Below, in pieces: positions 34,141 through 61,461 of a DNA stretch of 64,000 bases (positions are counted from its first letter, which is position 1; every line of letters starts with the position of its first letter). The position numbers were made by a program, and so were the translations under genes. The stretch lies in contig JAEFAB010000040.1 of the NCBI GenBank assembly GCA_016292095.1, positions 54,542-118,541 on the forward strand. Reading direction: 5' to 3'. Source of the stretch: Eubacterium sp. GTDB taxonomy: Bacteria; Bacillota; Clostridia; Lachnospirales; Lachnospiraceae. The notes below the pieces were generated by a model. That model searched no databases. It saw nothing but the letters and a program-made list of their open reading frames with translations, and was not told where the DNA came from.

Positions 34141-34310
34141 AAGCCATCCCATATCTGGAATGCCTTTCTACCAACACGTCGTAGCGGACAACGCTATAGC
34201 TGCCTTACATCCTCATGCACTTTCAAAACGAATTACTTGGTACTTTTAATATATCACTTAATTTTGGCAGTGTCAAACTTCTGCTTTGATTCTTTTGTTA
34301 TCTTTTTTAA

Positions 34311-34338
34311 AATGCCGCCAACTTTTGTTGACGGCATT
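34311..34338 (-). terminator. Terminator hairpin downstream of the STT3 gene
   Basis: AATGCCGCCAAC (34311-34322) / GTTGACGGCATT (34327-34338), T-rich tail on the minus strand. Confidence 0.75.
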
Positions 34339-34341
34339 CTT

Positions 34342-36828
34342 TTACTTGATTTGGTATACTCCTGCAGAACCAAGATAAGTTCTTAGTCCCGGACAGCATA
34401 TTCTATGTTGTATCATACTGTGGTCACCAAAGATATCGTTTGATATTTCTGTGGTAAATACTTTCTCGTAGGTTTTCTGTTCTGCCGCATCTGTGTAGAA
34501 CAACCTGAACATCACACTGTCGCAGAAATCCGAGTTACAGCAAATGGATGAATAGGAATCATTTTCTTTAAAAACAACAATGGCGCTTTTCGCATTTTTT
34601 GCTTTTTTATCCTTTACAACCTTTCCGTTTTCAATCAGAATATATCGGTCCATACGGATTTCCTTATCATCCCTACTGTAAACATGAGGCGTTACTATTC
34701 CTTCACTGTCAATGGCATAGGCCACTTTACCAATGTTTGTTCCGTTCCCCATCACATTTACCGGAGCTGTTTCCCCTGCTTCCACATGACGGGATATTGT
34801 TGAAGTCACGTAATAGTATCCCTCACTATTTCCTTTGAAATCCCAGGTTCCATAATATGCGATCACTTGCATTTTCGCAAACATATCCTGAGTTATAGCC
34901 AAATAAATTGGTTTTCCATCAGAAGGATGTGTCTTACTTACGACTTCCTCAGCTCGTTCTTTTGGAATATTGTACTGGTCTATCAGAATCCTTTTTGCTT
35001 CTTCTTTGGAAACCGGAAGTATTTTTCCTAATGCTTCACATTCTTTTTCCGGATTATTGATGACTTCCGTCAAAATACTTTGTGCTGTCAATCCACCATT
35101 TCCAAGCATACGGAAAATTCCAGCAGACAATTTATAATCTGATGTTAACAAGCCGCGGCCCAACCAATAGAAATACTGTCCATCAAACACACCACCATGG
35201 CCAATGGTTGCTCGTTCTCCATAGCATTGATAAAAATAACCATAATCCCACCAGCTTGCAATCAACGCATCTTTCGGTGTGTTCTTTTTTATCCAATCGG
35301 CCGTATCATAATAAATGGAAGTAATTCCCGGCTGGTAAGATTTGCTTAATTTATACGCCCCATTTACCGGTGTAACAATCAATGCTCCTGCCAGAAGAAA
35401 TATCAGTATCCCTTTGTACTTGTTTCTTCCAATTCCGGCACATAAAAGAATGACTACAAAAGAACTTACTCCCAGAATCAATTCTGAAGACAGAAAAGTT
35501 CCCACCACAACAATCAAACACATTCCATAAATGATTATAGAAGAAACAAAATTTAGTTCATTCTTTCGAATGTAATTGACAAGGTATCCCAAACCAAATC
35601 CCACTAAGACTGATAATGGCATTAAGATATATTCCAAAAATCTTCTTCCCTGAAACAACATGACAACCGTTGCAATAAGCCATGGAATAAAAATCATTGC
35701 CTGTAGTCCCATAGTGCGAAACTTTTCTTCTTCTGTCTTGCGATTTCTAAAACAAATTATGATCAGAACTATAGCGGTAAATAGTCCAAGAAGAATTACC
35801 GCCGCTCCTCCTAACATATTTATGTTTGTTCCAACCGTTGTATCAAAAATCTGTTCTATCTCAGTGGACACCCAAGACAGTTTTAACAGTTCTCCAATGT
35901 ATTTTGAAGCAGAGGGATACCCCTCCGCACCATTTCCTATTCCATCGGAAGTGGATATGAATAGATTAAGCAATCCCTGGACAAATCTTTTCCCGTCTAT
36001 AATCAAACTGAATAATGTGTTTACCAATAACTGTATTAAAATGACCGGTCGAATTCCTTTCGGGAATACGCCTTTAAAAATCAGTGTACCGAAAAGTGTT
36101 GCACATGCAACACCAAGAAATAAAATATAGTAAACATTATAAGAAGTCCAAGAAAAGCAAATCATCGCATAGGACAAACAGGAGACAGCACTCCAAAGTA
36201 CTCGCCCTTTTCGATTTTCTTCTTCCAAACTTTTATAGAAAGAAAATATCATTGCAAGTGGTAATAAGATGAGAATTCCATCTGTATCACAATGTCCCCA
36301 GTTTGTATTTGCAAGTACCGGAGTTCCACAGGAAAGTAGCACCGCTGCCACCACGCCACCAAACCGATTCGTCCGATTCTTGACAAAAAGGTATAGGATC
36401 ACTGATGAAACCCCTATGAGAAATGACACATATATCGTACCAATCAAAAGTAAATCAGTTATTCCAAAAATTCCAAACACTTTTGCAAAAAATGCTCCGA
36501 TGATTGGGAAAAGATTTCTTGTCCACGACTCATCTCTTTGTTTGCTTAATGTAATCATTTTAGAATCAGCACCGGCCTTACTTAATGGCTGTGGAGCATT
36601 TTTCCCCTCTGCAAAATCCTGTATTCTTCTTGCATAATAATAAGAGTCTCCCGGGTCATTGGTATAGGGAACATAATTTGCATCCGCAAATACCTTATTA
36701 TAACTTTGGGAATAGTCTTTCAATACAAGAGGACTAAATCGAATTCCAAAGGTTAATAACAGGATTAATACAATCCACAGGATATCCATTTTATATTTTT
36801 TGATGTTCAACATTTTCTTTTCTTTCAT
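34342..36828 (-). CDS. STT3/PglB/AglB-family oligosaccharyltransferase
   Basis: 828 aa, multi-TM N-terminal half; YTNDPGDSYYYARR (first acidic motif), NWGHCDTDGILILLPL (DxD in second loop), STEIEQIF (TxxE-like), SWWDYGYFYQCYGERATIGHGG (WWDYG encoded at 35239-35253). Confidence 0.9.
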   Translation of the reverse strand: MKEKKMLNIKKYKMDILWIVLILLLTFGIRFSPLVLKDYSQSYNKVFADANYVPYTNDPGDSYYYARRIQDFAEGKNAPQPLSKAGADSKMITLSKQRDESWTRNLFPIIGAFFAKVFGIFGITDLLLIGTIYVSFLIGVSSVILYLFVKNRTNRFGGVVAAVLLSCGTPVLANTNWGHCDTDGILILLPLAMIFSFYKSLEEENRKGRVLWSAVSCLSYAMICFSWTSYNVYYILFLGVACATLFGTLIFKGVFPKGIRPVILIQLLVNTLFSLIIDGKRFVQGLLNLFISTSDGIGNGAEGYPSASKYIGELLKLSWVSTEIEQIFDTTVGTNINMLGGAAVILLGLFTAIVLIIICFRNRKTEEEKFRTMGLQAMIFIPWLIATVVMLFQGRRFLEYILMPLSVLVGFGLGYLVNYIRKNELNFVSSIIIYGMCLIVVVGTFLSSELILGVSSFVVILLCAGIGRNKYKGILIFLLAGALIVTPVNGAYKLSKSYQPGITSIYYDTADWIKKNTPKDALIASWWDYGYFYQCYGERATIGHGGVFDGQYFYWLGRGLLTSDYKLSAGIFRMLGNGGLTAQSILTEVINNPEKECEALGKILPVSKEEAKRILIDQYNIPKERAEEVVSKTHPSDGKPIYLAITQDMFAKMQVIAYYGTWDFKGNSEGYYYVTSTISRHVEAGETAPVNVMGNGTNIGKVAYAIDSEGIVTPHVYSRDDKEIRMDRYILIENGKVVKDKKAKNAKSAIVVFKENDSYSSICCNSDFCDSVMFRLFYTDAAEQKTYEKVFTTEISNDIFGDHSMIQHRICCPGLRTYLGSAGVYQIK

Positions 36829-36843
36829 ATGAACCTCTATCCT

Positions 36844-37878
36844 TTACCACTTAATATCAATGTGCAGTCTCCGAATCATAAAGCGATACATTGCTAAAAA
36901 AAGCCGGAACAAATGGAGTTTGTCAAGGAGTCTTACCACAGCTATTTTCCTATTGAAACCATGTTTTAATGTATAGGATAACTTTAAATAGTTACTGTTT
37001 TTCCACAACGGAAAATTTTGTTCCAAAAATTCTCGATTCTTTTTCAGTGTTTCTTTAAAATCAGAATCCGTTGCCGAAACAAAATACATCAGGTTGATTC
37101 CTAGATGCAGAAAAGCCATTACATCCACTATTTCCATCCGGTCTTTTTTATCCTGTTCCTGATATAATTCCCGAATCCGAAGCATAGTTTCTTCCGCACT
37201 AGCTATTTTTTCCTTATCAATTGACATAATAATTCCACTTTGTCGGACAATATAAAAATACAAAATATCATCAACAAAGGAAATACTTTTTACGTTTCTG
37301 TACACTAACATTAACAGACTGAAATCGTCCATAATCTTCGGTTGAATATAATCAAATCCTTGAATCTCCTGTAATAATTCCGCTTTATATATTTTATTCC
37401 ACAACGCTGTATTTACAGATAATATTCCTTCCGGATTAGAGTCGAATTCGATTTCTTTTTTCCCATAATGATTCATTTCTCTGGAATATACTTTTCCTGT
37501 AATCTCGTCAATTCGTTCAAACCCACAGCAGACAATATCAGAATTACTTGTTTTGGCTTTTTGATACATTTTTTCAACAAAGTCTTCAGCCACATAATCA
37601 TCCGGGTCGACAAAACCAATATACTCTCCGGTGGCATGCTTGAGTCCATCTCCCCTTGCCCGATAAACTCCTTCATTTTCTTTATCAATCACTCGAATAC
37701 AATGATATGCTTCCTCGTACTTTCTTAACAGCGCAAGGCTTCCATCTTTGGAACCATCATTGACACATATAATTTCCACCTCTTGTAACGTCTGCCTTAC
37801 CAATGACTCCAAGCATCTGCCAAGATATTTTTCAACGTTATAGACCGGAAGAATCAAACTTACTTTTATTTTTTCCAT
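36844..37878 (-). CDS. Glycosyltransferase family 2
   Basis: KVSLILPVYNVEKYLGRCLESLVRQTLQEVEIICVNDGSKDGS; GFVDPDDYVAEDF. Confidence 0.93.
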   Translation of the reverse strand: MEKIKVSLILPVYNVEKYLGRCLESLVRQTLQEVEIICVNDGSKDGSLALLRKYEEAYHCIRVIDKENEGVYRARGDGLKHATGEYIGFVDPDDYVAEDFVEKMYQKAKTSNSDIVCCGFERIDEITGKVYSREMNHYGKKEIEFDSNPEGILSVNTALWNKIYKAELLQEIQGFDYIQPKIMDDFSLLMLVYRNVKSISFVDDILYFYIVRQSGIIMSIDKEKIASAEETMLRIRELYQEQDKKDRMEIVDVMAFLHLGINLMYFVSATDSDFKETLKKNREFLEQNFPLWKNSNYLKLSYTLKHGFNRKIAVVRLLDKLHLFRLFLAMYRFMIRRLHIDIKW

Positions 37879-38578
37879 CCCTCAGTTCACTTTCTATCTG
37901 CTTTCTTTTCGGCATTTTTAAAATTGTCACACAAATATCAATTACAAATCGAAATCCTTTGAATCCTTTTAAAAAGGACTCTCCGTACTTTCTTTTTTCA
38001 ACAATAATGGGAGTCTCATGAAATACATAGCCCTCCAACAACAATTTAGTCAGCATATCCGGTTCCGGTCTCTTGAATTCTCCCTGAAGATACCTGCGCA
38101 TAGCCTTCTCTCCAAAGATTCTCAATCCTGAAGTAGGATCCTTTAACTTCACCCCGGTCTTTAGGTATATACTGATTCGAATCAGTTTACTGCCTATTGC
38201 TCTTGGTGAAAATTTTTTTAATCCTTTTAAGTTTCTCACACCGATATAAACGTCTGGCTGCTCTTCCTCATAGAGTTTTGCCAATTTCAACAAATCCACA
38301 CACCGATGCTGTCCATCTGCATCGAACTGAGCAATTGCATGATACCCATGTTCCAAAGCATATAGAATCACTTCTCTGAAAACACATCCCAATCCTCTGT
38401 TTTCGTCAAAATGTATTGCCCGGTACTCGTTTTTTAAACATACCTGCCAGGTTTGATCAGTTGAGCCGTCATCAATAACCAGATAATCAAAATCCGTTTG
38501 TTCTTTTAGCCCTTCTACCGTTTCGGCAATTGATCTTTCCTCGTTGTATGCCGGTATTATTACTAATAAATCTCTCAT
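37838..38578 (-). CDS. GT2, DPM/DPG-synthase-like (polyprenyl-phosphate sugar synthase-like)
   Basis: LLVIIPAYNEERSIAETVEGLKEQTDFDYLVIDDGSTDQTW; AQFDADGQH; KLKDPTSGLRIF. Confidence 0.9.
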   Translation of the reverse strand: MRDLLVIIPAYNEERSIAETVEGLKEQTDFDYLVIDDGSTDQTWQVCLKNEYRAIHFDENRGLGCVFREVILYALEHGYHAIAQFDADGQHRCVDLLKLAKLYEEEQPDVYIGVRNLKGLKKFSPRAIGSKLIRISIYLKTGVKLKDPTSGLRIFGEKAMRRYLQGEFKRPEPDMLTKLLLEGYVFHETPIIVEKRKYGESFLKGFKGFRFVIDICVTILKMPKRKQIESELRDGKNKSKFDSSGL

Positions 38579-39417
38579 TTCTTTTCACCACAATTTCCAA
38601 AATCAATTTCATTGGTTCGATGATTATATCGTTCATTTTCCGGTGGCAGTTTCATATAATCCCCATAGAAATTTTTAAGCAATTGATCCGAATGATTCGG
38701 AATCTGCACCGTCATTCCTTCAAAAACGCCTTCCCTTCCCGGAATAAAATCTTCAATTTTCCAAACCGGTGGGGACGGCACTGTTGCCACGCAAAAACAT
38801 TCTCCGCTTTCCTTTGCATCATACTTTCCCAAAGCATTGATTGTTTTTCTTTTCAAAAACTCCTTTGAAAGATGCGTCCAACCAAACAGGGTGTGCAATA
38901 TATTCACCGGGATCTGTATTCTTTTGGGATATCCCTGAAACTTCAATGTTGCAATGGCAAGCATACGAGACAAAAATCTCGTTTTCAAAATATGCAGTTT
39001 TTGTCGAATACAATTCTCAGGCAAGCCATCTATAATAAAAATATCAATGAAGATTCCCGTTTCAAAGTGAACCTGTTCAGCCCACCATTCCTTAAACTTT
39101 GTGCCTCTCAGCATTAGCTTTGGAAAGTATAAAAAATAGTCTTTTTCATTTTGGGTAGAAACCAGATAGTACTGTTCTGATTTTTCCTCTTCCAATATTT
39201 TTTCAAGTCTCTCAAAATCTTTGCGAAACATTGCCACATCAATATCGTCGTCCCACGGAATAAATCCCTGATGACGGACAGTCCCAAGCAATGATCCACC
39301 AAACATATAATAAGTAATCTGATGTTTTTCACAAAGCTGAACAAAATAACGAAAAATTTCCCGTTCCGTTTTTTGTAATTTTTTCAACGTTTCCTTCTGA
39401 TAATCAGTATAATTCAT
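38575..39417 (-). CDS. LicD family protein
   Basis: ITYYMFGGSLLGTVRHQGFIPWDDDIDVAMFRKDFE is the LicD signature; overlaps both neighbours. Confidence 0.92.
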   Translation of the reverse strand: MNYTDYQKETLKKLQKTEREIFRYFVQLCEKHQITYYMFGGSLLGTVRHQGFIPWDDDIDVAMFRKDFERLEKILEEEKSEQYYLVSTQNEKDYFLYFPKLMLRGTKFKEWWAEQVHFETGIFIDIFIIDGLPENCIRQKLHILKTRFLSRMLAIATLKFQGYPKRIQIPVNILHTLFGWTHLSKEFLKRKTINALGKYDAKESGECFCVATVPSPPVWKIEDFIPGREGVFEGMTVQIPNHSDQLLKNFYGDYMKLPPENERYNHRTNEIDFGNCGEKK

Positions 39418-40856
39418 TGTTCCTCTTTTTCCTTATGTATCAAAAGTTTCAACAACGTACAATCCGTTTCGTCCACAAGTCGTAGTCCTATAAATAATGC
39501 TCCGTATACAAGTACTCCTACAAAGATGCCCACCCACAGCGATGTATGTAACACACATAGAACAAGAAACATTCCCATTGTTGCGATAGCAATTTTCACA
39601 ACATCCATCAACAAATGTATTCCCGGTTGGAACTCTGTTTTAGATATTTGCGTTAGTAAAATCAAAAAAATAAATGAACAGCTGGTCAAAGTCGCCACTG
39701 CCGATCCGTTATAGGAATAACCCGGAACCAATAATAGATTTATTAAAACATTTACTACCGCTCCAAGCAGGTAAATCATTGTCACCCGTCGTTCCATATT
39801 AATTGCGTTAAGTACAAGAATAGTTGCTCCATTGAGAAACAAAACTATAACCGTCCATATAGAAATCTTTAATGGCAAAATAGCTTCTCCATAAGATTGA
39901 TTATAAATCAACATAAGAATTTGTTTTGCATAAAAAAATATTCCCGCACAAATCGGTAAGATTACTGCCATTAAATACTTTACAGATTTCTCGTAGCTTT
40001 TCTGAATTAGTCCTTTTTGATTCACAAAAAAATTGCTTACTACAGGAAATAGCACAAGCTGATATACGGAAAATAATGTTGTAAATACCAGAAGAATATT
40101 AAAGACTGCTTTATAGATTCCTGCCTCGTAGTCTCCCTTCATTCCGGATAACATTACCGTATTAATTCCAAAATAAATTGTATTAAATAACGTAGTGATT
40201 CCAAAAGGCAACGATTTCTTGATAATTAAGAGGCTTTTCGAACAGTTTATTTTAGGGCTTGGCCACCCAAACTGTTTAACATACCTCCATGCCATAAATC
40301 CGAAAAATCCACTATACCCAACGACATAAGATAATGCGATTCCATAGATTCCCCAATCGCTAAGAATTGTAATCAGAATCCCACCAATGAGAAGTCCACA
40401 ATTAATCAACGCTCCGATTGACTGATATTTCAATTCCTCGTATGCTTGAAAAATTCCATTGATTAACTGCGTGAAAGTCATCAATATCATCTCGACCATA
40501 TAGATGAGTGTCACAACAATGGTCATTTTTCCACAGCCTGATACAATGAGAAAAAACAATCCGAGAAAAAAAACAGCAAACGATAAAATCAGCTTTAAGG
40601 GAAGTGTCAGATTAATATATTCATCCAAGCGCTTTCTGTTTCGCGCCACTTCTCTTGTTACATAAGTTGTAATTCCCAAATCAATCAATAGAATTGCAAT
40701 TCCAATGAATGAAGTGGAGAAAGAGATTATCCCATACTTTATCACTCCGAGATAATTAGCAATAACAATGGTCCAAAAAAACGCACAAATGCTGTTAATC
40801 ATCTGCGCAACTGCCAACCAACTTATGTTTTTAAAAACTACTCTGATTTTTGACAT
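39414..40856 (-). CDS. Wzx-type polysaccharide/oligosaccharide flippase
   Basis: 480 aa, ~12-14 hydrophobic segments; AVAQMINSICAFFWTIVIANYLGVIKYGIISFSTSF. Confidence 0.88.
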   Translation of the reverse strand: MSKIRVVFKNISWLAVAQMINSICAFFWTIVIANYLGVIKYGIISFSTSFIGIAILLIDLGITTYVTREVARNRKRLDEYINLTLPLKLILSFAVFFLGLFFLIVSGCGKMTIVVTLIYMVEMILMTFTQLINGIFQAYEELKYQSIGALINCGLLIGGILITILSDWGIYGIALSYVVGYSGFFGFMAWRYVKQFGWPSPKINCSKSLLIIKKSLPFGITTLFNTIYFGINTVMLSGMKGDYEAGIYKAVFNILLVFTTLFSVYQLVLFPVVSNFFVNQKGLIQKSYEKSVKYLMAVILPICAGIFFYAKQILMLIYNQSYGEAILPLKISIWTVIVLFLNGATILVLNAINMERRVTMIYLLGAVVNVLINLLLVPGYSYNGSAVATLTSCSFIFLILLTQISKTEFQPGIHLLMDVVKIAIATMGMFLVLCVLHTSLWVGIFVGVLVYGALFIGLRLVDETDCTLLKLLIHKEKEEQ

Positions 40857-40890
40857 TTTGCTGTTTCGTTCCTAACTCTCTCTATCAATA

Positions 40891-40924
40891 AGGGTTTTAC
40901 ATCACCTTTGAAATGTAAAACCCT
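40891..40924 (-). other. Intergenic hairpin between the sequon-rich gene and the flippase gene
   Basis: AGGGTTTTACAT (40891-40902) / ATGTAAAACCCT (40913-40924); weak T-tract, so possible attenuator or processing site. Confidence 0.6.
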
Positions 40925-40938
40925 CATAAATCTTAAAC

Positions 40939-43827
40939 CTATTTTACAGTAACCTTAACTTTTTTGCTAAAGCCATTCTGTACGTAAACATAGATATGAC
41001 ATGTTCCCTTCGCTTTTCCTCGAATAACACCTTTCTTCGTTACAGTTGCAATCTTTTTATTATCGCTTTCGTATCGAACTGTCCTATGTTCTTTAATACG
41101 TATCTTTTTAGATGCAGATATTGCTTTGCCTTTCAATTTGATTTTTTTGCCTTTCGTCAGGGTTACTTTATTCTTGTTCACAGTAACCTTGTTAGCATTT
41201 CCATTCTTTCCGCCTAATGTAGCAATATGCGCCATCTTTGAAATGGAAAGAACCTTTCCTTTCTTGTTCAGTGCTATAACAACAAACTTATAATAAGTTC
41301 CCTTTTTCAGTTTTTTAAGTGTATACGCAGTCTTCTTCGTTTCTGCCAACTTCTTGCATTTTCTAGTACGTCCACACTTACTATAATAAACTACGTACTT
41401 CTTAGCACCTTTCAGCTTCTTCCATCGGATTTTAATGGATTTCTTCCCAACTTTTTTCTGTTTTAACTGAAGAACATGATATTTTGAACCCTTGACATCT
41501 TTCTCATTGTCAATCACTTGAGCCGTTGATGTTTCAACGTTCTTCTGTGTGGTAGGTTCTTCTGTAACAGGCGTTGTTGTATTTTCTTCCGTAGTTGGTT
41601 CAGTAGAAGATTCCTCTCCACCTGTAACTGTGAAATTGGCCTGAACCACATTACTTTTTGTATACCGAGCATCTTCAATAAACTGAGCCTGAACCGTATA
41701 ATTGTCTGCCGACAAATTCTCCAATGGAATCTGCGCTAATCCTTCGACAGCCTCCACCGTTCTATTTTCACTAAAACTACCATTGTAATTGAATACTTCA
41801 ATTGCAATATTACCATTGATTAATTTGCCTCTCTTATCAGCTGCATCAATATTAACCAAAACAACATCTTCTTCCGGAATGTTTTCTGCCGTAATATTCA
41901 GTTCCGGTTTTGCTTTAACAATTGTTAAAGCATTTGAAACACTTGCATTGTGATTATATTTATTTCCTGAATAATCAACATCTAAGAAATAATTACCCAC
42001 AGGTAACTCCGATATTTCAACATATGCCCTTCCATCAATTGGACGTACACTCTGCTGAAATACTGTATCATTTGTAGTCACGTTTTTAATGTTCACTGCA
42101 ACACTGGCATTCCCATCGACATCATACATATAACCACCATAACTAACGTTTAGATTCGTTAAGTTGATCCCTATTGTTTGATTTTCTCCATACTCCAGAC
42201 ATTCTTTTGCATCAACAGCTAACCCTTTAAATATTTTCCGAATAATCTGCACCGGAAATTCTATGCTTGCCGAATTATAATTGTCATCCCCATCATATAT
42301 AATTGATGCATTATAAATTCCCTCTGGGAAACCAATAGCAGAAATCTCAGCCTTTCCATCCTTAATTCCAGGAGTACATATAACATCGCCCCCCATTTTA
42401 AATGTGAAGTTTCCGGTAGCATTTTCAGCAGTGGTTGCTATTATATTGAAACCATCTTCTTCTGTACCCAAACATCCATCCGGCTGATCAATAATGATTG
42501 TAGTATTGCCTTTATTAACAGTAAGATTTGTTACAAAATCACTACCCCAATGTAAATCATCTCCGAGATAAACAGCACGAATAAAATGGTCTCCAATAGA
42601 AAGTCCTTCGATTTCAACATGACTAACTCCATCGACCAACTCTCCTTCATAGGATTCTTCCATAGTACCATTATAAACCTTATGCCGCTCTTCATCATAG
42701 TAAAAATTGTCATCGTTATAAACTTCTATAGTGACGTTCCCGGTCACATTTTCTGAGTTCACAGTAACATTAATCACTCCCGGCTCACCATAATAAAAAT
42801 CCTCCATCTCCAGTGCGATATTTGTTTGATATTTCTCAATTTCCAAAAATGAAAAACTCTGTGACGGAGCATGGCTCTCATCCCCTGCGTAAGTAGCTAT
42901 CGCACAATAGTTTCCTCCTGATACTCTCGGAACCGTGACATTTCCTTTTCCATCTGTCAGTGGCACATTGTACCGTTCTATCAAACTATCGATTCCCATC
43001 TCTTCATAACTGAGGTTCCCCTCATACAATGAAATTGTTGGTATTTCATTGTACATTACGTTTGCAAGTGCTTCTTCCGCTAACATTTCTATTGTTTCTT
43101 CAAATAATACACTATCTTTTATAGAATAGATTTCCATATCGACACTGCCGGTCATATTACGATCATCCATTGTAATATTCAACACAACATCATCACCGGA
43201 GAAAAAGCTAGAATCGTGTTCCACAGAAAGAAATGTTGGTATTCTATGGTCTGTTACATTGCAGTAAAGAAAATCATCAGGATAATGATATTCAGAAACA
43301 TTAGAAATTCCCATTGGGACGGGAGCTAAAACGCGATTCTTTGATACGCTTTGAATTTCTTTTTTAGGGAGTTCAACAGTTTGAACTGTGTAATTTCCTT
43401 TAACCTGTTCGCCGTCGCCATCAAAGAATACACAATTCTTTAAAAAGATATCCACGGATTCGCTTTCTTCATTTACAATACATGGATTCGCGTAATTTAC
43501 AAACGGAATGTTTTCAAATGTAATTTGACCTTCTCCATATACGTGAATTCCATAGTTGGTGTAATCCATACTAATGATATCTTTTCCATCTGCTGAATAC
43601 ACTCTTACATTCTGCCCTTTTTTCAACGTCACTTCGATATCCGACGTTGCCACAATCGGCTCATCTTCGTCAAGGTATATTTCCGTCTCTCCGCTTTCCA
43701 AAGCTTCCTTCAACTGTTCCCAGGTAGAAATCCCCTCTGTCGTGGCATAAGTATTTACCGGAAATATTGATAATACCAATGCGAAGGTTAATATGTAAGA
43801 CAGCATAACCGAAATCGTCTTTTTCAT
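40939..43827 (-). CDS. Secreted Ig-like-repeat protein extremely rich in N-X-S/T sequons, basic C-terminal Fn3/Big2-like region
   Basis: Signal peptide MKKTISVMLSYILTFALVLSIFPVNTYA; GGAGGTG SD before ATG at 43827; repeated GNxTV / YSGDxxYN Ig-like motifs; 30 sequons counted by hand. Confidence 0.88.
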   Translation of the reverse strand: MKKTISVMLSYILTFALVLSIFPVNTYATTEGISTWEQLKEALESGETEIYLDEDEPIVATSDIEVTLKKGQNVRVYSADGKDIISMDYTNYGIHVYGEGQITFENIPFVNYANPCIVNEESESVDIFLKNCVFFDGDGEQVKGNYTVQTVELPKKEIQSVSKNRVLAPVPMGISNVSEYHYPDDFLYCNVTDHRIPTFLSVEHDSSFFSGDDVVLNITMDDRNMTGSVDMEIYSIKDSVLFEETIEMLAEEALANVMYNEIPTISLYEGNLSYEEMGIDSLIERYNVPLTDGKGNVTVPRVSGGNYCAIATYAGDESHAPSQSFSFLEIEKYQTNIALEMEDFYYGEPGVINVTVNSENVTGNVTIEVYNDDNFYYDEERHKVYNGTMEESYEGELVDGVSHVEIEGLSIGDHFIRAVYLGDDLHWGSDFVTNLTVNKGNTTIIIDQPDGCLGTEEDGFNIIATTAENATGNFTFKMGGDVICTPGIKDGKAEISAIGFPEGIYNASIIYDGDDNYNSASIEFPVQIIRKIFKGLAVDAKECLEYGENQTIGINLTNLNVSYGGYMYDVDGNASVAVNIKNVTTNDTVFQQSVRPIDGRAYVEISELPVGNYFLDVDYSGNKYNHNASVSNALTIVKAKPELNITAENIPEEDVVLVNIDAADKRGKLINGNIAIEVFNYNGSFSENRTVEAVEGLAQIPLENLSADNYTVQAQFIEDARYTKSNVVQANFTVTGGEESSTEPTTEENTTTPVTEEPTTQKNVETSTAQVIDNEKDVKGSKYHVLQLKQKKVGKKSIKIRWKKLKGAKKYVVYYSKCGRTRKCKKLAETKKTAYTLKKLKKGTYYKFVVIALNKKGKVLSISKMAHIATLGGKNGNANKVTVNKNKVTLTKGKKIKLKGKAISASKKIRIKEHRTVRYESDNKKIATVTKKGVIRGKAKGTCHIYVYVQNGFSKKVKVTVK

Positions 43828-43889
43828 TTTTTCACCTCCAAAAAATCTATAAATCACTTTGTTTTCTATTAAATCTCATACATACGTCT

Positions 43890-43919
43890 ATTGTAACGCG
43901 AAGGATAGCTAACCGTCAA
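43890..43919 (-). promoter_or_regulatory. Strong sigma-A-like promoter of the glycosylation locus
   Basis: TTGACG (43919-43914), 18-nt spacer, TACAAT (43895-43890). Confidence 0.75.
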
Positions 43920-55877: not shown

Positions 55878-58800
55878 TTATTCTCCGTAAACGCCGAATT
55901 CCCAAATAGAATATCCATATGGTAATGCACGTTCAACACCCTGCATTCTCACATATCTTGCATTTACTGAGTTGAATGTTACGGAATCTGTTCCACCGTC
56001 CTGATTTGTCAAGTTAGAAACGGTTGTCCAGTCACTTCCGTTTGTAGAAACCTGAATCTTATATGCTTTTCCGTAAGCTGCTTCCCAAAGGATTACAACT
56101 CTGTTGATGGAATAAGTCTGTCCAAGATCTACTGTCATCCAAGCATCATCTGTAAAGTTTGATGACCAACGTGTTCCGGACTGTCCATCGACTGCATTAG
56201 TTGCTGCCATTGCATCATTTTCTGATCCGGAAGCTGTTACTGTTTTATTGATTGCAACATTTGCTCCGTTTGTAGAACCGGAACCACTGCCGGATCCGTT
56301 ACCTGCACCGTAAACTTCCATTTCCCAAATAGAATATCCATATGGTAATGCACGTTCAACACCCTGCATTCTTACGTATCTTGCATCTGTAGCACTGAAT
56401 TCAATGGTATCTGTTCCACCATTCTGGTTTGTTAATGTTTTTACTGTTGTCCAGTTATTTCCGTTTGTAGAAACCTGAATCTTATAATCCTTACCATATG
56501 CAGCTTCCCAAGTTAAAACAACTTTGTTTACTGAGTAAGTCTGTCCAAGGTCTACATACATCCATGCATCATCTGCAAAGTTTGATGACCAACGTGTTCC
56601 AGAATTTCCGTCAACAGCATTTCCTGAAGCCATTGCTCCGTTTTCATCACCGGAAGAAACAGTTGTCTTATTCTTTGCAAGGTTTTCTGTTGTAGGAAGA
56701 CCCGGGTCCGGATCCGGATCAGGATCCGGATTTCCACTGCCTCCGTTAATGGTATATGTTGCAGTTGCTTCGGAGGAAGGAATCATACCCTTACGATATG
56801 CAATAGCTTTTAATGTTGTTGTGTTGCTAATCTTTACAGTTGGTACGTAAAGTTTAGAGTTTGCGTTTGGTGTAGAACCATCTGTTGTGTAACGGATTTC
56901 AACACCCTTTGTTGCACTGCTGATGGAAATATTTTGTGTTCCTGAATAAGTTCCGGAAGCCTTGCTGAAGGTTGGTGTTGCAACAGTTGCTGCTTCATAT
57001 ACACCTACTTCCCAGAGAGAATATCCATATGCTAATGCACGTTTAACACCCTGCATTCTTACGTATCTACATGTTGTTGCATCGAAGACGATTTCTTCAT
57101 CGCCACCCTTGCAGTTATTGTTTTCGTAAACAGTTGTCCAATTATTTCCGTTTGTGGAAACCTGAATCTTATATTCTTTCGCATAAGAAGCTTCCCAAGC
57201 GAGAGTTACTTTGTTAATTGTATAATTCTGACCTAAGTCAATTGTTGCATTTTCGTTGTCAGTGAATCCTGATGACCAACGTGTGGACTTATCATTATCT
57301 ACTAACTTATCTCCGCCAACAGTTGCATTTTCTGCAGAAGATACTGTTACATTCTTTCCTAATGCAATATTTATATCCTTAGAAACATTGCTTCCGTCTA
57401 CAGTAATTGTGCTGGATGCCATTGCTGATGTAATGTACTGATCTTTTACAGCGATTGCTTTAACAGTTGCTGTAGAAGAAACTGCAAATGTGCTTCCATC
57501 ATATACCTGTGAAGATGTGTTTGGCATTGAACCATCTGTTGTGTAGTAGATTGTTGCTCCAGGAGTTGTTGATGATAATGTTACGTACTGTGTATCATCA
57601 TATGTTCCTGAAGGAACTGAGATTTCCGGTGTTTCTGCCTGCTGAATATTAAAGTTTCTGTCTTTGTATACTTCAAAACTTACAAGTGCTTTTGCACCGA
57701 TTGTTGCTGTACCCTTCTGAGTACCGTTTACATTAAATCCTACAACCTTTGTTTCGTTTGTTGGATTCCAAACAGTTGCTGTATATTTGTTTGTATTCTT
57801 GTTATAGTAAACTGCTGCTGAGCAATCTCCTGTTGCAACGATTTCTGTAGTCTTAACTCCTAATTCTTTCATTGCACTGATGAACCAGTATGTATTTGCT
57901 GTATCAGTTCTCTGAACCTTTGTATCGTTTGCAAGGAATTTCTGCATTGCACGGTTTGGATCTGTCTGTGAAAGGAATGGCCATGTGATATGCTGCCAAC
58001 CTGTATCCTGATGTGGATATTCATTGACCATCTTATCAATTTCAGCCTGAGTCTTTCCTTCATTCTGTGCTGCCTGAATTGCTTTCGCCATTGCAACATC
58101 TGTATCATTTTCCAATCCTGCATAAATTTCTGCAGCTCTTGTCTGATTCATACCATAGTATGTTAAATATTCTGAAATTGGTAACCACTGGATTCCATAT
58201 ACGTAAAGTGGCTGTCCTCCGAAGAATGTTCCATAGAAGTTAATTCCACCGTATACCTGACCTACTACCTCATATGGCCATGCATCAATCCAGTTGTCTT
58301 TGTCATAATCGAACCAGTACTGTTCAACTGCTTCCATTTCGTTAGAGAATCCGAATACACCGGCATCACGATAAGTATCGTTTTCTGTAAGTACTCCCCA
58401 AAGATACATACTTACCCAGCTGAATAAGGATTCTGATGCAGATTCCTGGTTGTTTCCTGAATCATTATCTGCGTATCCACCTGCCCATGAATGTCCTTCA
58501 TACATGTCATACGCTCTGAATCTGCAGTATTCACTATCATTATCTGATGGGTTTGCATAATCACGAATCATTAATTCAATCATGCCCTTGTAGTCGTTGT
58601 AGAACTGTTCATCATAGGTTGCAAGAACAGTTGCTGCAAACATGAAATATCCGTATGTGAAGTGGTGGTCGCAAATTGCTGCGTTGGCACCAAATTCACT
58701 CTGTTCGTAGAATAATGTTCCCCAGTTCTGATTGTAAATGAAATAGCTGATATCATTTGCTCCATCATATGTGAACCAGTTTACAAGAATCTTTTTAATT

Positions 58801-61028
58801 CTCTTTAAGAATACATCTCTCAGTTCTGTTTCACCTAACTGATCTGCCATTAATGCACCCATTCCCAAAGGATGAAGGTTCTTTCCTTCCCAGTATGCAT
58901 CACCTGCAGGATTTAAGTTCTTTGTAGCATCTTCCAACTGACTTAAGTATCCAAGAATTGCTTCTCCATCGAAGTCTGATGTTCTAGGAAGTGCAAATGT
59001 TGGAAGAAGACCTGCAAAGTCTGAAACAGTGCTAAATGATTTTCCTTCAATTGTTTTCATATCACCACGTACTGATGTGTATGTGGTAAATGCATTGTTA
59101 TCATCTGTAGAATGTTTCCACTGATGAGGTAACATACACATAAATGTGTTTCCTGTAAATCCACCTCTTTTTACATTTGTTGTTACTGCGTAATTAGAAG
59201 TAATTTTACCCTGAGCGTCATTGTAGTTATATGTTACAGAAGTGTTTGTAACAAATGCATAACCATGACGATAGAATGTTTCAATCTGGCCCTTGTTTTT
59301 CATTGTACCGACTGACATATATCCGTCATTTCCCGGGAAAGTGATTCTGATATTCTTTCCGATTTTCTTAAATTCAGTATTTGCCGGCACTGATAAACAG
59401 TAATAGCTCTTTGATGTATTTGTTCTGTTTTTATTATCACTATCTGTTACTTCAATTCCAATGTGGTCTGCTGTCACTGAAGAAAGATTGTTTGTCAAAA
59501 TTTCGTTTCCGTTACCATCAAAAATTGATGTAATATTTGCTGATGTAATAGTCACTGCTCTGGTTGTTCCATATTCTGTGTAAATATATGGAGAACCTTT
59601 TACAAATGTACTTGTCATTGCCACATGATTGTCATCAGCTAACTGTGCTGTTACCGAGAAATCACTGTATCCGCTTACTTTATCACAAGCGGTTTCTGTT
59701 TCAAGGTTTTCAGGTAAAATATAAAAATCAATTTCTGTTTCGGTATTCACTGATACATTCACATCAGTTGGTCCCATATCAGGAAGCCATCCTTCTGTTG
59801 TAGTAAGGATTCCAAGTCCCTTTGTGGAATACTTTGTCTTAAATGGCAATGTACAAAGAGGATTACCAAACTTATTGATTAACATTGACTGCCACCAGTC
59901 ATTACTTGCGATTGGTGCATTTACGTTATCTGTTTTGTAAATTGGTAATTTTGCTTTTTCATTGTACATAGAGTTTGCCAGATAGGTTCCCTTTCCATCT
60001 GAAACAACTCTTGACTGTGGAAGATTAGGAATACTGTGAGTTACCTTTTGGTCACCATTCTTATATTCGTAAACCTTCATTTCATATATACTAAATCCGC
60101 TACCACTTTCAACTCTTGTATATCCATACATTCTTACATAACGTGCATTTGCATAAAGTTCAACATTTGCTACATGGAATCCGGAACCTTTTGTTTCGCG
60201 GAATAATGTAGTCCAGTTGTTTCCGTCTGTAGATGTCTGAATGTCATATATTTTTCCTGCGTCAGATGCCCAATCAATTACAACCCGACCAATTTCATAA
60301 TTTCTTCCAAGATCAACTGTTAACCACTGGTTATCTGCTTCTCCGGAAGTCCAAGATGTATTGTCCTTTCCATCTACTGCATTTGTAGCTAACACTCCGG
60401 TCTGATTGATTACACCATTTTCATCATACATCCACCAAATATCTCTCAGTGAAGATGCTGATACGTTTTTGCCCTGCGCAATATTTGTTCCATATTTTAC
60501 CGGTCTCTTTGTTACTCCGTCTAAACCGTACACTTCAAATTCATAGAGAGAGTAACCATATGCCGGTAACTGTTTTTCTGTCATATACAATCTTACATAT
60601 CTGGCATTCGCCTGAATATTCCGTTCTTCATTTCCTCCGTTGCAATTGTTATTTGCATCGATTGTTGTCCAGTTCTCTTCATCATTAGAAGTCTGAATCT
60701 GATACTTCTTTGCATAAGCCCCTTCCCAATAGAGTTTCACACCTGTAATCTGTGTTACTTTTCCTAAGTCAACGTAAATCCATTCCTCCTGATTCCCCCA
60801 GGCACTTTCCCAACGGGTTCCCAATGTGCCGTCGGCAACATATGCCGGATCGCTATTACCCACACTTGAGCTGGCGTATACTGCTCTTCCTTTTGAAATA
60901 ACATAAGGCGAGTTGTCATCCGCTTTAACTGTGAGATTCTGTGTTGGAAGCATTCCAACAACCATAGCAGTTGCTAAAAACGCTGCGAACGTTTTCTTCG
61001 CTTTGGTAATCACGTTACCTTTTCTCAT
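55878..61028 (-). CDS. Secreted multidomain endo-beta-1,3-glucanase: F5/8C x2 - GH81 - CHB_HEX - F5/8C - CHB_HEX - F5/8C x2
   Basis: Signal peptide; GH81-like FGNPLCTLPFKTKYSTKGLGI, ICDHHFTYGYFMFAATVLA, HSWAGGYADNDSGNNQESASESL; repeated VDLGQxYxINxVxxxWExxYxKxYKIQxSTNGNNWTT (F5/8C) and GATIYYTTDGSxPN (CHB_HEX_C). Start at 61028 behind GGAGGAG. Confidence 0.88.
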   Translation of the reverse strand: MRKGNVITKAKKTFAAFLATAMVVGMLPTQNLTVKADDNSPYVISKGRAVYASSSVGNSDPAYVADGTLGTRWESAWGNQEEWIYVDLGKVTQITGVKLYWEGAYAKKYQIQTSNDEENWTTIDANNNCNGGNEERNIQANARYVRLYMTEKQLPAYGYSLYEFEVYGLDGVTKRPVKYGTNIAQGKNVSASSLRDIWWMYDENGVINQTGVLATNAVDGKDNTSWTSGEADNQWLTVDLGRNYEIGRVVIDWASDAGKIYDIQTSTDGNNWTTLFRETKGSGFHVANVELYANARYVRMYGYTRVESGSGFSIYEMKVYEYKNGDQKVTHSIPNLPQSRVVSDGKGTYLANSMYNEKAKLPIYKTDNVNAPIASNDWWQSMLINKFGNPLCTLPFKTKYSTKGLGILTTTEGWLPDMGPTDVNVSVNTETEIDFYILPENLETETACDKVSGYSDFSVTAQLADDNHVAMTSTFVKGSPYIYTEYGTTRAVTITSANITSIFDGNGNEILTNNLSSVTADHIGIEVTDSDNKNRTNTSKSYYCLSVPANTEFKKIGKNIRITFPGNDGYMSVGTMKNKGQIETFYRHGYAFVTNTSVTYNYNDAQGKITSNYAVTTNVKRGGFTGNTFMCMLPHQWKHSTDDNNAFTTYTSVRGDMKTIEGKSFSTVSDFAGLLPTFALPRTSDFDGEAILGYLSQLEDATKNLNPAGDAYWEGKNLHPLGMGALMADQLGETELRDVFLKRIKKILVNWFTYDGANDISYFIYNQNWGTLFYEQSEFGANAAICDHHFTYGYFMFAATVLATYDEQFYNDYKGMIELMIRDYANPSDNDSEYCRFRAYDMYEGHSWAGGYADNDSGNNQESASESLFSWVSMYLWGVLTENDTYRDAGVFGFSNEMEAVEQYWFDYDKDNWIDAWPYEVVGQVYGGINFYGTFFGGQPLYVYGIQWLPISEYLTYYGMNQTRAAEIYAGLENDTDVAMAKAIQAAQNEGKTQAEIDKMVNEYPHQDTGWQHITWPFLSQTDPNRAMQKFLANDTKVQRTDTANTYWFISAMKELGVKTTEIVATGDCSAAVYYNKNTNKYTATVWNPTNETKVVGFNVNGTQKGTATIGAKALVSFEVYKDRNFNIQQAETPEISVPSGTYDDTQYVTLSSTTPGATIYYTTDGSMPNTSSQVYDGSTFAVSSTATVKAIAVKDQYITSAMASSTITVDGSNVSKDINIALGKNVTVSSAENATVGGDKLVDNDKSTRWSSGFTDNENATIDLGQNYTINKVTLAWEASYAKEYKIQVSTNGNNWTTVYENNNCKGGDEEIVFDATTCRYVRMQGVKRALAYGYSLWEVGVYEAATVATPTFSKASGTYSGTQNISISSATKGVEIRYTTDGSTPNANSKLYVPTVKISNTTTLKAIAYRKGMIPSSEATATYTINGGSGNPDPDPDPDPGLPTTENLAKNKTTVSSGDENGAMASGNAVDGNSGTRWSSNFADDAWMYVDLGQTYSVNKVVLTWEAAYGKDYKIQVSTNGNNWTTVKTLTNQNGGTDTIEFSATDARYVRMQGVERALPYGYSIWEMEVYGAGNGSGSGSGSTNGANVAINKTVTASGSENDAMAATNAVDGQSGTRWSSNFTDDAWMTVDLGQTYSINRVVILWEAAYGKAYKIQVSTNGSDWTTVSNLTNQDGGTDSVTFNSVNARYVRMQGVERALPYGYSIWEFGVYGE
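55901..56660 (-). repeat. Tandem near-identical F5/8C-encoding repeats
   Basis: Copies at 55901-~56230 and 56324-~56660 share an exact 49-nt run (cccaaatagaatatccatatggtaatgcacgttcaacaccctgcattct); third diverged copy from 57011. Confidence 0.85.
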
Positions 61029-61461
61029 TTTTTTCTCCTCCATTTTTAACTGCTTAATACTCTGTTCATTACAAAACAGTCAAAAAACGTAAAACACGTT
61101 TTGCATGCATTTTGACTTATTTCACAATGAATTATCCGAACCGTTTTGCATCTCGGACAAAATGCAAGAACATAATAAGATTAGAGAGAAAAAATGTTTT
61201 TTGCAATATATCAACAATTTTGAAACGTTTTTCTTTATTTTTTTGTGCATTTTGTATAATACCACTGCATTTCAAAGGGGTCATAAAACAATTTTTAGTA
61301 TATTTTTCTGTTTTTTTATTTTTCTTCACAGCCTTGGAACGTTTTTATTGACATAAAAGTGTTTTTATTTGATTTCTTCATTTTTTAAACTTTAGCACTT
61401 TAGCTCAACATATTGATATTTTTTTCTTCTTTTTTCATTTTTTATCCCCTAAAAAACAAAA

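Follow-up and report, generated by a model that had tools for sequence, protein, structure and literature searches.

The 64,000-nucleotide stretch of DNA analysed here (the window) comes from a Eubacterium sp. of the Lachnospiraceae (source genome, G000) and carries six consecutive genes on the minus strand in the order ACC, Wzx, LicD, GT2a, GT2b and OST. The first gene, ACC (40939–43827), encodes a secreted putative acceptor assigned from Pfam, sequon counts and a structure model; it starts at an ATG at 43827 that is preceded by a GGAGGTG site, giving a product of 962 aa. It is followed by the genes for a Wzx-type flippase (39414–40856), a LicD-family phosphotransferase (38575–39417), two GT2 glycosyltransferases, GT2a (37838–38578) and GT2b (36844–37878), and an 828-aa STT3/PglB/AglB-family oligosaccharyltransferase (OST, 34342–36828). 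Overlaps of 4 bp are found at both Wzx/LicD and LicD/GT2a and of 41 bp at GT2a/GT2b, and gaps of 82 bp and 15 bp separate ACC from Wzx and GT2b from OST. An earlier note, made from the sequence alone, had described six consecutive minus-strand genes with the flippase, LicD and GT2 genes overlapping in series, and both claims held, all six ORFs being confirmed at the positions given above.

The same note had placed a promoter upstream of these genes and a terminator after the STT3 gene. The promoter-like TTGACG-18-TACAAT is present in the intergenic gap (43890–43919, minus strand) with 10 of 12 consensus matches, and its support is positional only, because the region as a whole holds about as many promoter matches as background predicts (44 versus 42.7 expected). 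Past the OST stop, a terminator-like stem-loop can be read from the sequence (34309–34337, minus strand; ATGCCGTCAAC-AAAA-GTTGGCGGCAT at about 34337–34312), with a short run of only about four T, and the terminator scanner did not list it. The upstream DUF3800 and dnaJ genes and the downstream prmA gene lie outside the unit, as shown by the empty site in the sister genome G404 (PrmA 93% identical, rated 100% complete), where DUF3800 and prmA are adjacent, the cassette is absent and the sequence runs uninterrupted across the junction TAAAAAG/ATAACAAAAGA. The interval between OST and prmA (34276–34140, minus strand) also contains a strong promoter-like TTGACA-17-TATATT, downstream of which about 110 highly conserved nucleotides end in a hairpin and T run. 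This stretch is also present in G402 and in the G404 empty site and therefore predates the cassette; it could be a small RNA, and no Rfam family matched in the window, this stretch included.

By family and fold, the product of 34342–36828 is a full-length STT3/PglB-type oligosaccharyltransferase; its catalytic activity is inferred. The Pfam scores are 67.8 bits for the STT3 N-terminal domain (cut-off 24.5) and 34 bits for STT3-PglB_core (cut-off 23), and a profile built from 17 Lachnospiraceae relatives matched the solved structures of PglB (3RCE, E 8.7e-29), human STT3A (2e-28) and AglB (7.3e-11). The catalytic motifs D61, D181-T182-D183, E313 and WWDYG (526–530) are invariant or nearly so in these 17 relatives, which covers the acidic catalytic residues required in EL1 and in the DxD/TIxE region, and together with R396 they persist even where identity falls to about 20%. 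The AlphaFold model (mean pLDDT 78, pTM 0.80) gave PglB as its top Foldseek matches (5OGL/6GXC, E 2.7e-18, TM 0.63/0.72), followed by AglB and STT3 and then by DPY19 (6.1e-7), ArnT (2.7e-5) and Pmt4 (1.1e-3). This ranking and the WWDYG motif rule out a non-STT3 GT-C identity such as ArnT, PMT or DPY19. The identification of the 828-aa protein as STT3 thus held, and its placement in another GT-C family, which had been set beforehand as the refuting outcome, was looked for and not obtained. Near the +2 pocket, residues 649–656 read MFAKMQVI (MxxKxxxI), which is neither a clean MI motif (MxxIxxxI/V/W) nor a clean DK motif (DxxKxxxM/I); the counterpart in the STT3 of locus L010, MYAISQWF, is near MI.

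GT2a (Pfam GT2, 76.3 bits) is a DPM1/AglJ/PpgS-like enzyme with a DADGQH motif that is presumed to transfer a sugar to polyprenyl phosphate. Its NCBIfam PpgS and AglJ matches are far under cut-off (AglJ TIGR04182, 45.4 versus 325 bits), and with the curated cut-off not met the likeness to AglJ is only a lead as to how the enzyme might work. GT2b (Pfam Glycos_transf_2, 131.9 bits) is presumed to extend the glycan, and the LicD protein (Pfam LicD, 149.9 bits) to add a phospho-substituent to it; in other proteins, LicD domains are responsible for attaching phosphocholine or similar groups. The flippase (Pfam Polysacc_synt, 114.6 bits) has 12 hydrophobic segments according to a topology count on relatives. 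Relatives of GT2a lie beside STT3 in loci L009, L010, L012 and L025, and a GT2b relative, 44.6% identical, adjoins STT3 in L025. No initiating phosphoglycosyltransferase was found in the cassette. Because three PF02397 enzymes and one PF00953 enzyme are encoded elsewhere in G000, the choice between a mono- and a diphosphate carrier remains undecided.

ACC consists of a signal peptide, an N-terminal domain, an Ig-like (Big_3_5) stalk spanning residues ~140–738 and a C-terminal anchor of fn3 and Big_2; Pfam finds four Big_3_5 domains together with fn3 and Big_2, and the structure model shows Ig-like β arrays. The protein contains 30 N-x-S/T sites versus 10.0 ± 2.8 expected from shuffles, and 29 of them lie in the stalk (residues 140–738, 6.7 expected, z 10), with none in the N-terminal domain and one in the C-terminal part. 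Counted by offset from N, S/T residues number 30 at +2 and 5–15 at the other offsets between −8 and +8. None of the sequons has proline at x, NxT and NxS number 22 and 8, respectively, and no acidic preference at −2 was found. The reverse motif S/T-x-N occurs 11 times, which is chance level, and not one of 2000 sequences drawn under local-composition or strand-alternation nulls reached 30 sequons. ACC is thus exported and has N-x(not P)-S/T above chance, as required of an acceptor, its G402 homologue meeting this weakly; the description of the first gene product as sequon-rich and secreted held, and the excess is not chance.

The sequon excess is specific to the linked protein. Proteins that share the ACC anchor and are unlinked to the cassette (n = 24, nearly all from genomes of the genus without STT3, and two from G000 and G403) have z values of −1.6 to 1.8, and Big_3_5 proteins in STT3-lacking Lachnospiraceae (n = 4) have z values of −0.5 to 0.8. 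Secreted proteins of G000, sampled over ~670 kb (stretches plus the window, not the whole genome), contain 296 sequons versus 266.7 expected with the 30 of ACC included and ~266 versus ~257, chance level, without them, so that ACC is the outlier of this sample; the sample gives no sign of genome-wide selection for sequons. A high z cannot serve as proof by itself, since a secreted β-helix-like protein of the STT3-lacking genome G282 (L090:14160–16925) has 35 sequons versus 16.9 expected (z 5.0, owed in part to a low-complexity NKSDS run).

The six-gene order is kept in four species, G000, G403, G402 and G405, and the OST of the last three is 92%, 75% and 59% identical to that of G000; STT3 is found in 4 of 23 genomes of the genus. 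The G405 cassette stands in a different genomic context, making two contexts overall, and the conserved order, the two contexts and the empty site support the claim that the six genes form one unit. No OST match was found in the plasmids searched, and plasmid carriage was rejected. Between G000 and G403 (window 38575–43827 versus L002), the DNA of ACC, Wzx and LicD is 96–99% identical, whereas identity in the flanking genes is 78–87%, DnaK excepted (93.4% in the compared part), a pattern that points to a recent exchange involving part of the cassette. A complete ACC, with its N-terminal domain and stalk, is seen only in the four cassette-bearing genomes, and the C-terminal anchor is a genus-wide module. 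In G402, most of the stalk has been lost from the linked acceptor, and enrichment is only mild (7 versus 3.2 in the central part, z 2.3). That of G405 is ~40–45% identical to ACC of G000 and has 34 sequons, and 10 of the 30 positions are common to both. Position-specific conservation of sequons was therefore not found, while their density persists, from which we infer that density and not position is under selection. In G402 only, two small membrane ORFs lie between DUF3800 and the acceptor gene (L062:6254–7134).

A second group of STT3 enzymes, found in other Lachnospiraceae at L009 (isolate Lachnospiraceae bacterium MC2017, with the 1267-aa protein below), L010 and L012, is deeply separate from the window OST (21–22% identical). 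The secreted proteins beside them, of 1267, 1208, 1246 and at least 995 aa, have 54, 41, 45 and 30 sequons, respectively (z 6–10), and show the same +2 peak as ACC. These L009-type acceptors are unrelated to ACC: they contain Chlam_PMP-type repeats, with Big_2 in addition at L009, and share their signal peptide with each other and with the protein adjoining the L025 STT3, the first domain of which is sequon-dense (7 versus 2.3). Homologues occur in 1 of 397 genomes of the family, an STT3-positive one. In the STT3 tree, built without archaeal reference sequences, well-supported branches split the ACC-linked and L009-type groups with non-linked STT3s on both sides, so the association with an acceptor either arose twice or was repeatedly lost. 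The L025 locus repeats the set of GT2a, DUF2304, GT2b, OST and a natural Wzx-LicD fusion (L025:5262–7616, minus strand, 784 aa) that directly adjoins the STT3 gene, which ties Wzx and LicD to OST. Many Lachnospiraceae STT3 loci, those of six long STT3s (L004–L008 and L028) and of several more among them, are without a sequon-rich neighbour, and no convincing sequon-rich protein was found farther out on other STT3 contigs; linkage of STT3 to sequon-rich secreted proteins thus recurs at L009, L010 and L012 and is absent at many loci. Restriction of the excess to the linked protein, and its recurrence with an independent STT3 clade, give strong indirect support to the claim that ACC is the main acceptor, though N-linkage is without biochemical proof.

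Among ~1,150 Bacillota genomes sampled, WWDYG-bearing STT3 occurs only in Lachnospiraceae (~2%); counting WWDYG or WWDFG, 7 of the 397 Lachnospiraceae genomes in the sample have it, and the remaining sampled Clostridia and Bacillota have none. Weak PF02516 matches without WWDYG elsewhere in Clostridia and Bacillota were excluded from this count. According to a 2011 review, no case of N-glycosylation had been observed in Gram-positives (PMC3068309), and a 2012 set of validated N-glycosites covered Archaea and Proteobacteria only (PMC3392279). The earlier note knew of no characterised example in the phylum, and we found no characterised Bacillota oligosaccharyltransferase in the open-access literature searched.

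Systems of this type are already known, and this one is set apart as a variant by its phylum, its LicD component, its mobility and the private acceptor. Campylobacter and Desulfovibrio PglB, the best fold match, are likewise single-subunit STT3-family enzymes in a glycan assembly cluster. The window cassette differs in its occurrence in Bacillota, in a Wzx-type flippase instead of the ABC-type PglK, in LicD and in a co-encoded, sequon-saturated acceptor without acidic −2 preference. It has no diNAcBac genes and, lacking a PglK-type ABC flippase, PglC and a bacillosamine gene, does not meet the criteria for a Campylobacter pgl system. The archaeal Agl system (AglB with an AglJ-type GT2) also pairs an STT3 enzyme with a DPM1/AglJ-like GT2 and has a heavily glycosylated surface protein, a feature only inferred for the window. 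Unlike Agl, the window system is bacterial, scores 45 versus 325 bits for AglJ and has a dedicated operon with LicD and Wzx, and ACC is not shown to be an S-layer protein. The serine-rich repeat protein/accessory Sec loci of Gram-positives resemble the cassette in that a large adhesin-like substrate is encoded along with the genes for its glycosylation; they perform cytosolic Ser/Thr O-glycosylation, whereas the window system is inferred to be of the lipid-linked, extracellular type.

We consider a portable N-linked glycosylation cassette with a dedicated acceptor the likely reading of the locus, with catalysis, linkage, glycan composition and lipid form all inferred. The first sugar would be placed on undecaprenyl (di)phosphate in the cytoplasm by GT2a or by a housekeeping phosphoglycosyltransferase encoded elsewhere. 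GT2b would extend the lipid-linked glycan, LicD would add a phospho-substituent (group unidentified) and Wzx would flip the product outward, where the STT3 enzyme would move the whole glycan in one step onto Asn of the N-x-S/T sites in exported ACC, which the same cassette encodes. With about thirty sites packed in the Ig-like stalk between the N-terminal domain and the cell-surface anchor, a heavily glycosylated surface stalk would be expected.

The alternative that survives best, and remains possible, is general N-glycosylation, in which ACC is merely one of many exported proteins that OST modifies. C. jejuni-type systems are general, and at many STT3 loci of Lachnospiraceae no sequon-rich protein is linked. 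Against it, the non-ACC secreted proteins of the G000 sample are at chance and no enrichment is seen in paralogues from the same genomes that share the anchor; it is not excluded, because general systems need not enrich sequons. We think it unlikely that the sequons are relics, the stalk deriving from a methanogen adhesin-like protein selected under archaeal AglB and the bacterial OST doing something else. The rumen setting favours this, as does the fact that methanogen adhesin-like proteins join right-handed β-helix and Ig-like domains (PMC11532034), a secreted surface architecture like that of L009-type acceptors. The maintenance of density in G405 through turnover of sites, however, requires continuing selection. 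ACC differs from the methanogen proteins, among which no homologue was compared, in having as its anchor a bacterial module that occurs across the genus. It is similarly improbable that an STT3-like GT-C enzyme glycosylates some other acceptor, such as a wall polymer or Ser/Thr. There are no OST activity data and MxxKxxxI is a variant of the MI motif, but conservation extends to WWDYG, the DxD pair and E313, and the sequon linkage recurs in a second STT3 clade. Finally, many ACC sites lie in predicted β-sandwich strands and turns, but the proposal that alternation in Ig-like strands favours N-x-T without glycosylation is very unlikely, strand periodicity being ruled out as the cause by a null retaining odd/even alternation (10.0 versus 30), the chance level of S/T-x-N and the Big_3_5 controls.

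The cassette reading can be extended to a bolder one, for which we see as much against as in favour: that rumen Lachnospiraceae have at least two independent, horizontally moving OST cassettes, each OST being dedicated to its own sequon-saturated surface protein, with density and not position selected and the glycan bearing a LicD-added phospho-substituent. If true, Gram-positive bacteria would have a first OST-type N-glycosylation system, working in a 'private acceptor' mode, which suggests that this modification can serve as a private and mobile trait of surface display instead of a general one. Because the cassette is compact and self-contained and brings a natural multi-site acceptor, the question can be put to the test in a heterologous host; the cassette would also supply a new class of single-subunit OST for glycoengineering.

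Two further observations concern neighbouring proteins. The window also encodes a 1721-aa secreted protein (55878–61043, minus strand) with repeated discoidin-like modules (F5/8-type by eye) and 36 sequons versus 24.2 expected (z 2.9), without a sharp +2 peak. DUF2304, which is absent from the window cassette, is found by Pfam in small membrane proteins near a DPM1-like GT2 and STT3 at L009:9454–9867 and L025:11129–11548; small membrane ORFs at L010:8922–9278 and L012:5097–5459 are similarly placed, and proteins of this type may be partners of the lipid-sugar GT2.
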